From positions 1 to 64,000 of the forward strand of contig PHFX01000003.1 of NCBI GenBank assembly GCA_007618135.1: a DNA stretch of 64,000 bases, written 5' to 3'. The position numbers and the translations under genes were made by a program. The notes under the pieces were generated by a model. That model had not been told where the DNA came from and did no database searches. It saw nothing but the letters and a program-made list of their open reading frames with translations. The DNA is from Candidatus Brocadia sp. WS118 (GTDB lineage Bacteria > Planctomycetota > Brocadiia > Brocadiales > Brocadiaceae). Shown piece by piece: positions 3,438 through 41,945 of this stretch (positions are counted from its first letter, which is position 1; each line of letters opens with the position of its first letter).

Positions 3438-4721
3438 TTATCGACGCAGAAAATAAACCGGCAATGACAACACAATCGCTATTGTTGTTGCTGCAATTAC
3501 CTTTAATTCCACATGGCATATCAGCCAACCACAAATCACCAATCCTATAACAGGAACAACATCTCCACCAGGTACCATATAACTCCTCACCCGCTCTGCA
3601 CGGTACCTTCTCAATACCATAACCGCCAAACAGGCAGGAATATATTGGAGAATACTTACTATGACGCTTGCTGCAATCAGATATTTAAAGCTGCCTGTCA
3701 GACTTAATGCCAGTGTCAAGGCGGTGTTGAGGAGAATAGCCCAATAGGGAGTGCGATACGTCCGATGTAATTTGGAAAATATTCGGGGAAAAAATCCATC
3801 AGCAGAAAGTACATAGAGACTCCTGGGACTGGTCAGGGCAATTCCGGCATTGACACCTCCAATAGAAAGCAACGCCCCGGCGCCGATAAGGATGCCGCCG
3901 GCCTTTCCCATAAAATGTTGAGCCGCATCCGCCAAAGGTTTATCAGATGAGGCGAGTGCAGGGAATGTTCCTGCAGCTACGATCTGAATGGTAACATATA
4001 AACCCGTGACGAACATGAGCACAAAAAACAGTGCGCGCGGGATGTCCCTTCGGGGATGTCGCATCTCTCCTGCGGGTACCGCAATAAATTCAAATCCGGT
4101 ATAGGCATACAAAGCCATAATGATTGCTGCAGAGAAATTTCCTTCATGCAATGCTGGCGGTATCTCCCTATCCCATAGTGACACAGGAGAATCACTTCCA
4201 TGGATAAAAAATAATCCCACAACAATGAAGATAAGCAAAGACAGGAGTTTTCCCACGGTAAAAAAATTAATGGTTCTTGACCCTGGTTTTATCCCAAAGT
4301 AATTAATGGTGCTTAATCCTCCAATGAGGAGGGTGATAACCAGGTTGCTCACCCATGGACTTGCTCCTGGAAGAAAATACCCTGCATACAGCGAAAACCC
4401 GCTTGCGACCGATGCCCAGCCGATGATAGATGAAAGCCACATCATCCAACCAACCAAAAAACCTGCAAACGGACCAAAGGCCTCTCTTGCATAGAGGTAT
4501 GCCCCGCCGGTTGTATGGTACATACCACCCAGCTCTGCAAAGCACAGGGCGATGGCAAAGCAAAGGATTCCGCACGCAGGAAACACCCACACTGCGTCAC
4601 GTCCGGCAAAGCTGGAGAGCTGGCCCGGCAATAAAAAAATGCCGGCGCCTACTACACTGTTAATTCCCAAACAGGCCACATCGAAAAACCCTAACGTCCT
4701 CTTGAATTCATGATTTTGCAT
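3438..4721 (-). CDS. APC-superfamily amino acid permease
   Basis: A 427-residue inner-membrane protein with about 12 hydrophobic segments. The N-terminus carries the helix-1 glycine-rich substrate loop typical of the amino acid-polyamine-organocation family (GINSVVGAGIF, about residues 19-29), followed by the conserved SFAGRDAVWVFP and GGAYLYAREAFG segments. Such proteins import amino acids by cation symport or exchange; the substrate cannot be told from sequence. It is transcribed away from the TPR lipoprotein gene and ends exactly at the breakpoint of the vapC remnant, so its 3' end marks the edge of the decayed defence region. Full length for the family, with no sign of damage. Confidence 0.85.
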   Translation of the reverse strand: MQNHEFKRTLGFFDVACLGINSVVGAGIFLLPGQLSSFAGRDAVWVFPACGILCFAIALCFAELGGMYHTTGGAYLYAREAFGPFAGFLVGWMMWLSSIIGWASVASGFSLYAGYFLPGASPWVSNLVITLLIGGLSTINYFGIKPGSRTINFFTVGKLLSLLIFIVVGLFFIHGSDSPVSLWDREIPPALHEGNFSAAIIMALYAYTGFEFIAVPAGEMRHPRRDIPRALFFVLMFVTGLYVTIQIVAAGTFPALASSDKPLADAAQHFMGKAGGILIGAGALLSIGGVNAGIALTSPRSLYVLSADGFFPRIFSKLHRTYRTPYWAILLNTALTLALSLTGSFKYLIAASVIVSILQYIPACLAVMVLRRYRAERVRSYMVPGGDVVPVIGLVICGWLICHVELKVIAATTIAIVLSLPVYFLRR

Positions 4722-36889: not shown

Positions 36890-37927
36890 ATGTCTAATTT
36901 GAAGGTTGCTGTAATTGGTGTTGGTCATCTGGGGAGGGAGCATGCAAGGGTCTATACCGAGTTACCAGGGGTGACGCTGATCGGGGTTGTTGACATTCAG
37001 CGTGATCAGGCGGAGAAAATTGCACAGCGGTACCATACACAATGCTTTTCAAACTATAAGGAGATCATTGACCAGGCAGAGGCCGTAAGTATTGCAGTTC
37101 CCACAAAGGCTCATTACGGCATAGCAAAGGATTGCCTTCAGCACGGAATTCACGTCATGATCGAAAAACCCATGACAGGAACGGTACAAGAGGCGAGGGA
37201 ATTAATCGCTATGAGTAAAGCAAAAGGGGTGGTGCTTCAGGCAGGATATATTGAGCGGTTTAATCCTGCAATAGACGCGATAAAAAAACTCTCCATCAAT
37301 CCCCGGTTTATCGAGTGCCATCGGCTAAGTCCGTTTACCTTCCGTTCTGCTGATATCGGAGTAGTGCTTGATCTGATGATACATGATATTGACATTCTTC
37401 TGCACGTAACAGGATCTAAGGTAAAAAAATTTGATGCCGTGGGAGTAAATGTCATTTCTGACAAAGAGGATATTGCAAACGTCCGTATTCAATTTCAGAA
37501 CGGCTGTGTAGCGAATGTTACCGCTAGTCGGGTATCAATTACCTCAATGCGTAAAATGAGATTGTTCTCCGAGGATTCATATATTTCTATTGATTATCAG
37601 AAAAGAGATGCATTAATATATAAAAAATCTCCCAAGCTGACTTTGAAGGCATTAAACATTTCTGAAATGGATGTCTCGACCATTGCCGATTTGAAGAGTT
37701 ATGTGTTTGGTGACTTATTAAAAGTGGAGCATATAAAGATGGACGATTGCGAACCACTCAAAAAGGAACTCGGCTCTTTTGTGGATTGTGTTGTTGGGCG
37801 TAAAGAACCGATTGTTTCGGGAGAAGAAGGTTTGAAGGCGATTGAGGTCGCAAATGACATTGTATGCGAGATAGAAAAAAATCTCAAATTAGTCCACAAT
37901 ACAAAGAGTATGGAGGATAAAATATGA
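36890..37927 (+). CDS. Gfo/Idh/MocA-family NAD(P)-dependent sugar oxidoreductase
   Basis: 345 residues with a Rossmann motif (VAVIGVGHLGREHARVY), the EKP signature (IHVMIEKPMTGT, catalytic Lys) and HDIDILLHVTGS (active-site His) in the substrate domain. It begins 2 bases after lpxA. In Leptospira and Acidithiobacillus a related enzyme (GnnA) oxidises UDP-GlcNAc at C3 for 3-amino lipid A, but the aminotransferase GnnB is not beside it here, so substrate assignment is inference. Its stop overlaps the radical SAM start (ATGA at 37924-37927). Confidence 0.85.
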   Translation: MSNLKVAVIGVGHLGREHARVYTELPGVTLIGVVDIQRDQAEKIAQRYHTQCFSNYKEIIDQAEAVSIAVPTKAHYGIAKDCLQHGIHVMIEKPMTGTVQEARELIAMSKAKGVVLQAGYIERFNPAIDAIKKLSINPRFIECHRLSPFTFRSADIGVVLDLMIHDIDILLHVTGSKVKKFDAVGVNVISDKEDIANVRIQFQNGCVANVTASRVSITSMRKMRLFSEDSYISIDYQKRDALIYKKSPKLTLKALNISEMDVSTIADLKSYVFGDLLKVEHIKMDDCEPLKKELGSFVDCVVGRKEPIVSGEEGLKAIEVANDIVCEIEKNLKLVHNTKSMEDKI

Positions 37928-39171
37928 CATCATTTGATTTTTTACATATCGACTCTGAGATTCTTGCCGGTAAAGTAGTAGGAAAGGCTGGAGGGGTATT
38001 GGGCAAAATGTTGCAGCCTTACGTGGACCAGTTTTTTGAGAAGATTAATTCCTTGAAGGTGATTGCCAAAATGAATGGCATGAATGTTTATAACCTGTAT
38101 AATCCCCCATTTCCCAGTCAGGCAGGGATGAGATTTCTCGAACGAAAGTTGAGAATGATGCTGCATAAGATGGCATTCCCTGTTACCGCGAATTTAGCCA
38201 TTACCCATAAATGCCAGTGTCAGTGTATTCATTGTAGCGCGGATCCGTTTATCGACCCTGCAAAAAGAGATTTGACGGTAGAGGAAATAAAGACGGTGGT
38301 TGATGGTGCGCTGGATCTTGGCACAAGCCTTATCATCTATGTAGGCGGGGAACCCCTGCTCCGTGAAGAGCTTTACGATCTCATTCACTATGTAGATAAA
38401 ACCAAGGCAATTCCCATGATATTTACCAATGGATTACTCCTTACCGAAGAAAACGTCCGAAAACTCGCTCAGGCAGGGCTGTTTTCCTTAAATATCTCCA
38501 TCGATAGCAGCGAGCCTGAATTGCACAACGAGTTTAGGGCAGTACCGGGGTGTTATCAAAAAGCCTTTGAGGGCGCTGAACGTTGCCGCAAGGCTGGGAT
38601 CCTGACGGGTATTTCCACCTACGCAACGAGTGAAAGTATCAAGACGGGAAAGGTTGAAAAACTCTTAAAGATTGCTCAGGAACAAGGGTTTTCCGAGGTA
38701 ACGATCTTTGACTGTATTCCGTCAGGCCGGTTCTTGAAGGATACATCAAAGATATTGACGGCTGAAGACCGGAAACAATTGATTGCCCTGACGAAAAAAT
38801 ATCACGAGATGAACCATCCGATGGGAATAAATTGTATGTCGATTATCAATTCGCCGCGGGGTGTGGGTTGTTATGGAGCACAGTCTCAATTTTATATGAC
38901 GGCATATGGTGATATTAATCCCTGTGATTTTAATCCCATTAACTTTGGGAACGTACGCGAAATGTCTATTCAGGAAATATGGAAAAAGATGGTAACACAT
39001 CCTGACTTTAGCAAGCGATACCCCACCTGCCGTATGCAGAGCAAGGCGTACCGGAAAAAATATATCGATCCGCTTCCCAAAAATGTGCGGTTGCCGGTAA
39101 AAATAGAGGATATTGCACCTATCGAGCTTGCTGATCAGGAAATTACCCTTGCCGGGGTAGGATCGTTCTAA
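37924..39171 (+). CDS. Radical SAM protein with SPASM-like C-terminus
   Basis: 415 residues. After an N-terminal helical region of about 90 residues comes the cluster motif C-x3-C-x2-C (HKCQCQCIHC, about residues 97-104), followed by YVGGEPLLREELYD and FTNGLLLTEE, standard for the radical SAM barrel. The C-terminal quarter has spaced cysteines (GVGCYGAQ, INPCDFNP, YPTCRMQ) that may bind an auxiliary cluster, as in SPASM/NirJ/PqqE proteins. The substrate is unknown. Translationally coupled to the Gfo/Idh gene, and 29 bases before the DUF1858 gene and the HAO module. Options include cofactor maturation for the cytochrome or envelope-lipid chemistry; sequence alone does not decide. Confidence 0.82.
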   Translation: MTSFDFLHIDSEILAGKVVGKAGGVLGKMLQPYVDQFFEKINSLKVIAKMNGMNVYNLYNPPFPSQAGMRFLERKLRMMLHKMAFPVTANLAITHKCQCQCIHCSADPFIDPAKRDLTVEEIKTVVDGALDLGTSLIIYVGGEPLLREELYDLIHYVDKTKAIPMIFTNGLLLTEENVRKLAQAGLFSLNISIDSSEPELHNEFRAVPGCYQKAFEGAERCRKAGILTGISTYATSESIKTGKVEKLLKIAQEQGFSEVTIFDCIPSGRFLKDTSKILTAEDRKQLIALTKKYHEMNHPMGINCMSIINSPRGVGCYGAQSQFYMTAYGDINPCDFNPINFGNVREMSIQEIWKKMVTHPDFSKRYPTCRMQSKAYRKKYIDPLPKNVRLPVKIEDIAPIELADQEITLAGVGSF

Positions 39172-39200: not shown

Positions 39201-39431
39201 ATGGGCGGCGAAATTCTCATCACAAAAAAAATGAGCACAGGAGAAGTCACAAAGAAATATCCTGCAACAAAAGCAGTTTTCACAAAATATTTCGGGAAAG
39301 GATGTTTCGATTGCCCTTCTTTTGGTACGGAAGATATCAACCTTGCCTGCATGATGCATAGCACCGATGTAGATAAATTCGTGAAAGAATTAAACGAAGC
39401 GGCTCAAAAAGAGGCAACCAAGACTCCGTAA
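39201..39431 (+). CDS. DUF1858-domain protein
   Basis: 76 residues matching the small DUF1858 domain: ITKKMSTGEVTKKYPATKAVF, KGCFDCPSFGTEDI (the conserved Cys pair) and HSTDVDKFVKELNEA. The domain is found alone or at the N-terminus of ScdA/RIC-like and hybrid-cluster-related proteins and is associated with nitrosative stress and Fe-S repair; biochemical function is unproven. A good ribosome site (GGGAGG) precedes the ATG. It opens the small-protein set leading to the octaheme cytochrome. Confidence 0.85.
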   Translation: MGGEILITKKMSTGEVTKKYPATKAVFTKYFGKGCFDCPSFGTEDINLACMMHSTDVDKFVKELNEAAQKEATKTP

Positions 39432-39563
39432 AAGGCCTCGATTTCCCATTCCAAAGGAGATACGAGTCTAAATTATCTTCGGTTGACAGGTGTGATATGC
39501 CTGTCACAATAGAAATTGTCTGGAAAATTGAACACATGTCCTGGAAGGAGGTTGGCTTATACC

Positions 39564-39866
39564 TTGGAACCAATATATTTAGAAGAAAAAATAACATTTA
39601 ACAAAGATCACTTTATTCTAAATATTCTTTACGCCTCACCAAAGGTAAAGATGCCGCTTATTTGTATGGAACCTGGCCAGGAAATCCCGCCCCATGGCGG
39701 ACAAAGTGTAGGTATTTTCTATGTAAAAGAAGGGAAAGGAGTATTTACCCTCGATAATAAAAAAATTGATATGAAAAAGGATATGATTATTGTCGCTCCA
39801 GAGGGGGCGTCAAGGGGTATGCGGTGTACAGAAAGAATGGTTGTTTTGGCTATCAGCGTAGGGTAA
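39564..39866 (+). CDS. Cupin-domain protein
   Basis: A single-domain cupin of about 100 residues: PGQEIPPHGGQSVGIFYVKEG is the first cupin motif (with only one of the usual two His), and KKDMIIVAPEGASRGM fits the second. The metal site is therefore atypical. No ATG is available before the motif. TTG at 39564 lies 12 bases after AAGGAGG; TTG at 39552 is also in frame but touches the ribosome site. Between DUF1858 and DUF2249 genes; possible sensor or small-molecule binding protein. Confidence 0.75.
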   Translation: MEPIYLEEKITFNKDHFILNILYASPKVKMPLICMEPGQEIPPHGGQSVGIFYVKEGKGVFTLDNKKIDMKKDMIIVAPEGASRGMRCTERMVVLAISVG

Positions 39867-39889
39867 ATCAATGAAAAAAAGGGAGAGAT

Positions 39890-40126
39890 ATGAATAAGAC
39901 ACAGCCTGTTGTTCTCGATGTAAGAAGTATTGTGCCCAGGGAAAGACATCCAAAAATATTTAATACCTTCGACGGTCTGAAAAAAGGCGAGATGATGGTC
40001 TTGATCAATGACCACGACCCAAAACCCTTAAAGTACCAGTTGGATGCAGAACGAAGCGGGCAATTGGACTGGAAATACATTGAACAAGGACCTGAAGTTT
40101 GGAAGGTAGAAATAACGAAAAAATAA
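39890..40126 (+). CDS. DUF2249-domain protein
   Basis: 78 residues covering one complete DUF2249 domain: VVLDVRSIVPRERHPKIF, GEMMVLINDHDPKPLKYQL and WKYIEQGPEVWKVEI. The HDPKPL segment is the family hallmark. DUF2249 is related to the TusA/SirA fold and is frequently encoded near nitrite/nitric-oxide reductases, hemerythrins and DUF1858, suggesting a role in NO-linked metabolism (association only). Start ATG with GGGAGAG upstream; the HAO gene follows after 78 bases. Confidence 0.87.
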   Translation: MNKTQPVVLDVRSIVPRERHPKIFNTFDGLKKGEMMVLINDHDPKPLKYQLDAERSGQLDWKYIEQGPEVWKVEITKK

Positions 40127-40204
40127 AGAGTCAGTACGGATTCCGAAGGTTTTGAATGTACTGGTTATTTTAACAAACATGGTTGAAGAAAAGGAGAAAG
40201 GGAT

Positions 40205-41875
40205 ATGAGCAAGGGGATAAAATTTACAATCTCTCTGGGGATATTTGCCCTGTTGGGCTGTATCCAGCTTGGCTGCGAACAGGCGTCTGTGAAAAAGGCA
40301 GAAGTCGTTACCATGAAACAAGGGGAGGAAATTTCCACTAAGTCAAAAGAAGAGACAAAGCCCGTGGTTTCTGCTCCTGAAATGCAAAAGGAGGCGAAAG
40401 CTTCGTGTTCCGTAAAAAAGGAGGAAATGACATCGCATCCAAAAGACAAGAGGACTATTCAGCAAATTATCTCTGAGATCACCGGAGAAAAGATGGGCGC
40501 TGATAGTTCAGGAGACTTGTATCACGCCGGTTTAACAGCCAGTTATACCGGTCCAGAAGAGGTGCTCCCTGGTGAGGGTAAGTTTGGGAAACTGTTTGGA
40601 TTTTTACCTCTTATGCGATGGTATGATCCTGATCACTATTATACACCGAACATGAATGTTTCAGGAGAATTTAAGCATGAAGAGTGTGTTATGTGTCATA
40701 CGGTACAGACACCCGGTATTGTTGCACAATGGAAAAAGAGCAAACACTCATCTACAGAAAAGGGTGTTGTAGGGTGCGACAAGTGTCATGGGAATAATCA
40801 CCAGCAGCTCTACATGCCTTCATGGAAGCACTGTGGCGAGTGTCATCCTGAACAACAGGCAGGCCATCGTGCCGGCAAAATTGGTTCACATACGCATGCA
40901 TTCCATGTAAGCGTAATAGAAGCTCCCTGGCAGATCGCAAAACCGGCAGCAGAGGTAACAGCGTGTGCTACCTGTCATGGCATCGCTGAAAACCGTTGTG
41001 ATGGGTGTCATACAAGGCATGATTTTTCCGTGGCGGAAGCAAGAAAACCAAATAACTGCGGAATCTGCCATACCGGGCTCGACCACTATGAATACGAAAT
41101 GTACAAGGAATCATATCATGGAATGATTTATGAATCAGAGCAGCATACCTGGGATTGGACAAAGCCCCTGAAACCGGTTAATTATAAAACCCCGACCTGT
41201 GCATATTGTCATATGAAGGACGGTGAACATAATGCTCAAAAAGCTTCTACCATAAACAGCCATATGGGCACGTCTCTTGTAGACCGTGGGGCGCCGAAAT
41301 TTAAAGAGGCAAGGCAAAACTGGATTAACACGTGCAAGGGTTGCCATTCTCCCCGATTTGCTGCAGACCAGTTTGAAGCTATGGACGAGGCTGTAAAAGT
41401 CAGCTTTACCAAGTGGCGTGAGGCCATGAAGATCGTAGTCGATCTTTACAACGATGGTATGCTGGACCCCATGCCGAACGATTTGGCCCCTGACTACGCA
41501 GGACACTACACCTTTAGCCTCCTTGGCGGCGAGGGCAGGATGTACAATGTCTCAGACATAGAACGTACATCCTTTGAGATGCTGGTCTATATAACCAATT
41601 CCGTATACAAGGCCATGGCACACGGGGCTATGTATGGCGCCACTTACGGGAAAGGCGCCTTCCTGCAGGATCGTTGGCTTATCCAGGTTAAGGGTGAGGC
41701 CAGCCGCTTGAGGAGGATCAAGGCGCTGGAGAATCAGGTAGGAATACAACATAAGGCATACGACTTCTGGAAACACGGGGAGTATACGGATCTGCTCTTA
41801 GGCTGGAAGAGAAAGCCAGGAGACGTAGATAAGTCCAAGTGTATGCATGAGGGAGAAAATTGCTTGGCTGAATAA
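40205..41875 (+). CDS. Octaheme hydroxylamine-oxidoreductase-like cytochrome c
   Basis: 556 residues with exactly eight CXXCH heme sites, starting near residues 161, 191, 210, 254, 265, 285, 332 and 377, in the spacing of HAO. Heme 4 (CATCH, 254) corresponds to the catalytic P460 position. HAO-family enzymes oxidise hydroxylamine or hydrazine, or reduce nitrite. A Tyr near residue 481 (GATYGKG) aligns with the region of Nitrosomonas HAO (WTYTEG) that cross-links to P460, which favours an oxidative enzyme. The N-terminus is odd: FALLGC at residues 14-19 resembles a lipobox, followed by about 100 polar residues before heme 1. The Nitrosomonas-type C-terminal membrane helix is absent. Expected in the periplasm or anammoxosome. 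Confidence 0.92.
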   Translation: MSKGIKFTISLGIFALLGCIQLGCEQASVKKAEVVTMKQGEEISTKSKEETKPVVSAPEMQKEAKASCSVKKEEMTSHPKDKRTIQQIISEITGEKMGADSSGDLYHAGLTASYTGPEEVLPGEGKFGKLFGFLPLMRWYDPDHYYTPNMNVSGEFKHEECVMCHTVQTPGIVAQWKKSKHSSTEKGVVGCDKCHGNNHQQLYMPSWKHCGECHPEQQAGHRAGKIGSHTHAFHVSVIEAPWQIAKPAAEVTACATCHGIAENRCDGCHTRHDFSVAEARKPNNCGICHTGLDHYEYEMYKESYHGMIYESEQHTWDWTKPLKPVNYKTPTCAYCHMKDGEHNAQKASTINSHMGTSLVDRGAPKFKEARQNWINTCKGCHSPRFAADQFEAMDEAVKVSFTKWREAMKIVVDLYNDGMLDPMPNDLAPDYAGHYTFSLLGGEGRMYNVSDIERTSFEMLVYITNSVYKAMAHGAMYGATYGKGAFLQDRWLIQVKGEASRLRRIKALENQVGIQHKAYDFWKHGEYTDLLLGWKRKPGDVDKSKCMHEGENCLAE

Positions 41876-41908
41876 GTTAGAAAAAACAAGTTTGTAAAAA
41901 GTTAAGAA

Positions 41909-41945
41909 AAAAGGCTTAATTCGTTTTTTGGATTAAGCCTTTTTG
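41909..41945. terminator. Strong terminator after the HAO-like gene
   Basis: AAAAGGCTTAAT pairs with ATTAAGCCTTTT around a short loop with T runs on both sides, so it can stop transcription from both the plus-strand HAO series and the convergent minus-strand gene at 41972. Confidence 0.9.

Follow-up and report, generated by a model that had tools for sequence, protein, structure and literature searches.

The window, a 64,000-nucleotide stretch of contig C221 in a 5.0-Mb genome of the genus Candidatus Brocadia, carries on its forward strand a compact row of three small genes followed by the gene for a large multihaem cytochrome. By its HAO and cupin sequences this genome is closest to Candidatus Brocadia carolinensis (G014) and Ca. 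Brocadia pituitae (G015). The small genes encode a DUF1858 protein (39201–39431, 76 aa, with the motif GCFDCPSFGTEDINLACMMH), a cupin that we call cupin 1 (39564–39866, 100 aa) and a DUF2249 protein (39890–40126, 78 aa), and the last gene encodes an octahaem HAO-like cytochrome (40205–41875). We found no terminator-like sites between the genes of 39201–41875, and an intrinsic terminator with a 16-bp stem (41908–41944, same strand) closes the unit. Directly upstream lies a radical SAM/SPASM gene (37924–39171, also forward), which we judge to be outside the unit, as discussed below. Starting from this gene, the successive intergenic gaps are 29, 132, 23 and 78 nt. Open reading frames and Pfam profiles bear out the four same-strand genes that an earlier note had read from the DNA; the cupin frame is also present, only its listed start at TTG 39516 had to be moved to the TTG at 39564, since the orthologues and a Shine-Dalgarno site place it there. 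Among the orthologues (L068–L123) a TTG start is used at 29 of the 32 Brocadiaceae loci and at the Scalindua-family and f5 loci with a readable start, often 2 nt past the DUF1858 stop codon; the weak start is conserved, and translational coupling is likely. The DUF1858–cupin gap also contains an inverted repeat, TGACAGG-N9-CCTGTCA (39483–39507), a possible regulator site or hairpin, whose arms are present at locus L068, partly at L070, and absent at L069, L071 and L072.

The DUF1858 protein scores 44.4 bits against PF08984 (curated cut-off 32.2) and 52.9 against TIGR03980 (cut-off 44.95), and the NMR structure 2k53 represents a relative (E 2.5e-8). Its CxxC motif, which reads CFDC in the window, is invariant among the orthologues, which have a third cysteine as well. 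The domain recurs elsewhere in the same genome: one DUF1858 gene is followed by NifU and one adjoins a rhodanese-like gene (both neighbours named by inspection). Two further proteins, on contigs C245 and C237 (L001 1465–3174 and L002), join a C-terminal DUF1858 domain to an NnrS/COX1-like membrane domain; the C245 protein has a second, weaker DUF1858 match near its N-terminus.

Cupin 1 scores 38.1 bits against PF07883 (Cupin_2, cut-off 27.2), and its AlphaFold2 model (pLDDT 97.0) matches RmlC-like cupins in Foldseek (E 2e-8, TM 0.9). This atypical cupin does not pass as a metal-binding one: of the His/Glu ligands that the two motifs would supply, only one His is kept. A cysteine is invariant across 25 aligned cupins from several phyla. 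At other loci cupin 1 may be followed by a second cupin gene, cupin 2, and in one Scalindua genome (G056) the two form a single 204-aa protein (L108 7940–8554; L151 5992–6603), which suggests that the cupins act as a pair. The window’s genus appears, from the gene orders described below, to have lost one cupin of the original pair.

The DUF2249 protein is identified by a score of 103.9 bits against PF10006 (cut-off 29.5). A search of PDB sequences found no relative. The AlphaFold2 model (pLDDT 89.8) has a beta-alpha-beta-alpha-beta-beta arrangement, for which the top Foldseek ranks are TM006/SirA-like/TusA proteins, with TM-scores of 0.70–0.74 to TusA and HP1264 but E-values above 0.001. A role as a TusA-type sulfur carrier was considered and rejected: in place of the Cys-Pro motif the stretch reads IVPRERHP, and the protein is free of cysteine. 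What is invariant instead is histidine, within the motifs RHP and NDHDP. Every genome with this gene has one copy, placed beside cupin 1 by coordinates in 46 of 46 cases. In other Planctomycetota a hemerythrin domain is fused to DUF2249 in 6 of the 10 proteins scanned, and DUF2249 also adjoins NnrS-DUF1858 or COX1-like genes.

The cytochrome fits the earlier description as an eight-haem HAO-like protein, with eight CxxCH motifs and scores of 144 against Multi-haem_cyto (cut-off 21.9) and 43.4 against Hao_C (cut-off 27). It also contains the cross-link tyrosine motif ATYGKGAF and the Asp-His pair of HOX, and on these features it should be an oxidative, P460-type enzyme, probably acting in hydroxylamine or NO chemistry. 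The closest PDB entry is the kustc1061 HOX (4n4j). The protein is not HOX itself, as the HOX sequences form their own clade (100/100 support) and a distinct HOX gene lies on contig C76 of the same genome; nor is it a hydrazine dehydrogenase, scoring 442.8 against NF052343, for which the equivalog cut-off is 900. On the tree, HAOs of the window type stand apart from HOX, HDH, a Glu-Gln group and a group confined to the Scalindua family, and they were not recovered as one strict clade (two changes). The orthologue in Kuenenia stuttgartiensis (genome G031, recognised from a HOX identical to 4n4j across 500 residues) has 591 aa and is 81% identical to the window protein, which by length would make the latter the orthologue of kusta0043. 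The window type is absent from the genus Scalindua, a distribution that agrees with the one published for HAO4 (PMC12758564). Transcripts of the kusta0043 homologue stood at 328 TPM in a metatranscriptome dominated by Brocadia, those of HOX at 3586 (PMC4913261), and expression of kusta0043 fell after hydrazine shock (PMC12053348).

Several variants of these cytochromes were seen along the way. In genome G033 a relocated window-type HAO, away from the small genes (L090 4573–6255), carries Glu in place of Asp, and its cross-link tyrosine has been lost. A widespread anammox HAO group (L105, L110, L120 and others) keeps the tyrosine, most members having Glu-Gln instead of Asp-His. Directly 3′ of the HAO gene, Kuenenia and genome G035 encode a small cytochrome c with one haem and a lipobox (L085, L087, L092), a possible electron partner.

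Gene order was compared in 62 genomes of the order Brocadiales, and we examined 32 loci in Brocadiaceae (f1), 12 in Scalindua and its relatives (f4) and one in family f5; these genome counts follow related species and are not independent events. The Brocadiaceae order is nearly constant, bamA-ompH-lpxC-lpxA-gfo-radical SAM-DUF1858-cupin 1-(cupin 2)-DUF2249-HAO, with DUF1858 kept at all 32 loci and HAO directly after DUF2249 at 31 of them; the exception, G033, has its HAO elsewhere, as mentioned. Because the order from DUF1858 to HAO recurs so consistently, the arrangement is not due to chance, and the earlier note’s reading, which was to fall if the genes did not stay together in related genomes, holds within this family. 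In the Scalindua family, DUF1858, cupin 1 and DUF2249 occur together at 9 of the 12 loci (DUF1858 was not detected at the G044 and G045 loci, nor DUF2249 at the G060 locus), where they are surrounded by housekeeping genes (dnaA, dnaN, gyrB and aspartate aminotransferase, named by sequence inspection). Nearly all of these loci, and that of f5, which also keeps DUF1858, lack an adjacent HAO. Only in two related Scalindua-family genomes, G049 and G058, is there an HAO gene nearby, a different paralogue that ends 20 bp 5′ of DUF1858. Among the genomes searched, the small genes are missing from families f2 and f3 and from G059. The HAO orthologue is nevertheless found in the Bathyanammox-type family f3 and in G059; its upstream neighbours in f3 were dropped as a functional clue, being mainly aroK- and moaC-like housekeeping genes.

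The small genes therefore are a conserved unit, as proposed in the earlier note, but HAO, which the note counted in, does not belong to the core, since each occurs without the other. The older unit appears to be the cassette DUF1858-cupin-cupin-DUF2249, which is free-standing in Scalindua and in one other family. In the Scalindua family DUF2249 faces a convergent aminotransferase gene, and at six Brocadiaceae loci HAO does. On the simplest history, the cassette is the earlier of the two and HAO was joined to its 3′ end in Brocadiaceae, between DUF2249 and the aminotransferase gene. The HAO linkage as a whole comes down to one ancestral event in Brocadiaceae and one, with a different paralogue, in two close Scalindua-family genomes.

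The radical SAM gene, which the earlier note had placed just ahead of the module, does not belong to the unit. It has clear Radical_SAM (79.7) and SPASM (36.5) Pfam matches, and assignments as AhbD or NirJ were rejected (157.4 and 139, against equivalog cut-offs of 500). Its orthologues, 72–82% identical and present throughout f2 and f3 but only in some of f4, end the same bamA-ompH-lpxC-lpxA-gfo row, mostly followed by rpsB-tsf-pyrH-frr (by sequence inspection), without the cassette, while K. stuttgartiensis keeps the cassette and HAO and is missing the radical SAM gene. Since this older block has the gene without the cassette and Kuenenia has the cassette without the gene, we consider it a neighbour by site.

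Beyond Brocadiales, the cupins have their nearest relatives in deltaproteobacterial MAGs, within the row NifU, ferredoxin, COX1-like, cupin 2, ScdA_N or DUF1858, cupin 1, ApbC/Mrp and NIR_SIR ferredoxin; at one locus (L150) COX1/COX2 haem-copper oxidase genes lie opposite this cluster. A Thermodesulfovibrionia genome has NifU next after cupin 1. Haloarchaeal DUF2249 genes adjoin nirK/nor/nar/nos and their expression rises under denitrification (PMC11218638), and a Bradyrhizobium DUF1858 gene near nirK belongs to the NnrR regulon (PMC6710368). The tie of both domains to NO and nitrite metabolism, which the earlier note had stated, is thus borne out by gene context in the window’s genome, among other Planctomycetota and in published work. 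No paper among those searched mentions the cupin, DUF2249 or DUF1858 of anammox bacteria in this setting. Taken together, these independent contexts converge on NO/nitrite metabolism and on the upkeep of iron-sulfur and other iron centres.

What, then, might the cassette do? On gene context and homology we propose, with a probability of about one half, that DUF1858-cupin(-cupin)-DUF2249 is a cytoplasmic, NO-linked accessory cassette that maintains iron-sulfur or other iron centres. Its response would be to nitric oxide or kindred nitrogen oxides, with such centres kept up or repaired by the joint action of a CxxC protein that is redox-active, a protein of TusA fold whose histidine motifs are invariant, and one or two cupins. 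Nitric oxide is a free intermediate in anammox bacteria. In Brocadiaceae the cassette would have become the head of a gene set ending in an exported, oxidative P460-type HAO, and we propose that the two became linked because HAO handles reactive nitrogen in the anammoxosome and the cassette its effect in the cytoplasm. The cassette stays intact across several different genomic settings, in agreement with this reading. Against it, the hemerythrin domain seen in relatives is not part of the cassette itself, according to Pfam profiles. The function is not needed for anammox as such, since f3 does without the cassette although HAO, HOX and HDH homologues are present. A bolder version, which we consider doubtful, is that DUF1858, DUF2249 and the cupin pair form one complex carrying or repairing Fe-S clusters under constant NO, with the attached HAO setting or lowering the NO/hydroxylamine load; this would, just as tentatively, amount to an undescribed coupling of anammoxosome reactive-nitrogen chemistry to cytoplasmic iron-cofactor repair.

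The main reading and its rivals are not fully exclusive. A possible, if somewhat unlikely, alternative is that the cassette senses nitrogen oxides or regulates in response to them, much as DrpAB of Thermus does but with the domains on separate proteins: DUF2249 would sense, DUF1858 relay and the cupin bind a ligand, and expression of target enzymes would shift. DrpA and DrpB are required for nitrate-dependent control and for nitrate reductase activity (PMC6282519), and the cassette has both domain families together with the invariant histidine motifs. However, it contains no DNA-binding domain, and its relatives outside anammox bacteria adjoin Fe-S assembly genes. As DrpAB also act on nitrate reductase activity after its synthesis, a sensor of this kind would not be cleanly separate from an upkeep system.

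The other two alternatives concern the link to HAO and pull in opposite directions. That cassette and HAO are neighbours by history only, HAO having landed before the convergent aminotransferase gene and never moved, agrees with the position of that gene, with G033, which retains the cassette after HAO has gone, and with the housekeeping block upstream, which is equally well conserved. The genes 3′ of HAO vary among Brocadiaceae genomes, however, while the order of cassette and HAO is constant, on one strand and with gaps of 22–349 nt, and we therefore think it improbable that history is the whole explanation. A set specific to the HAO-like enzyme, serving its maturation or protection (haem, P460 cross-link or folding), as the earlier note had offered, would account for the 31 adjacent pairs in Brocadiaceae and for the second paralogue beside the cassette in G049 and G058. 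It is far less in keeping with the many Scalindua-family loci, and that of f5, where the cassette has no adjacent HAO, with f3 and G059, where the orthologue has no cassette, and with Scalindua-family HAO paralogues that contain the tyrosine without any adjoining cassette. By inspection the DUF1858, cupin and DUF2249 proteins have no signal peptides, while HAO is predicted to be exported, which makes direct maturation unlikely, so we regard this role as very improbable. The cytoplasmic upkeep of iron centres under NO thus remains our preferred proposal. It would offer a concrete, conserved and testable candidate for how iron-sulfur enzymes survive NO in anammox bacteria; DUF1858, DUF2249 and the atypical cupin gain a common genetic context, and the little-studied paralogue kusta0043 its closest gene partners.

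Of known systems, DrpA/DrpB of Thermus thermophilus share with the cassette the DUF1858 and DUF2249 families and the context of nitrogen-oxide respiration (PMC6282519). However, DrpB is a DUF1858-DUF2249-DUF2249 fusion and DrpA a DUF2249 protein, while the anammox domains are separate single-domain genes; DrpAB have no cupin described and adjoin nar, whereas the cassette has one or two cupins and adjoins HAO or is free-standing. RIC/ScdA/YtfE iron-centre proteins bring in the iron-sulfur repair domain ScdA_N, a relative of DUF1858 that stands in for it beside these cupins in the deltaproteobacterial rows, but they have a hemerythrin di-iron domain, which the anammox cassette lacks. TusA/SirA resemble the DUF2249 model in fold, within the E-value limit given above, but their active-site cysteine is absent from the anammox protein. 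HOX kustc1061 shares the eight haems, cross-link tyrosine and Asp-His pair with the window HAO, which is however only 56% identical to it, falls outside its clade and is lipoprotein-like. The nearest counterpart is kusta0043, equal in length to the K. stuttgartiensis orthologue, which lies in the same gene order as in the window; it differs in having a plain signal peptide where the window protein has a lipobox.
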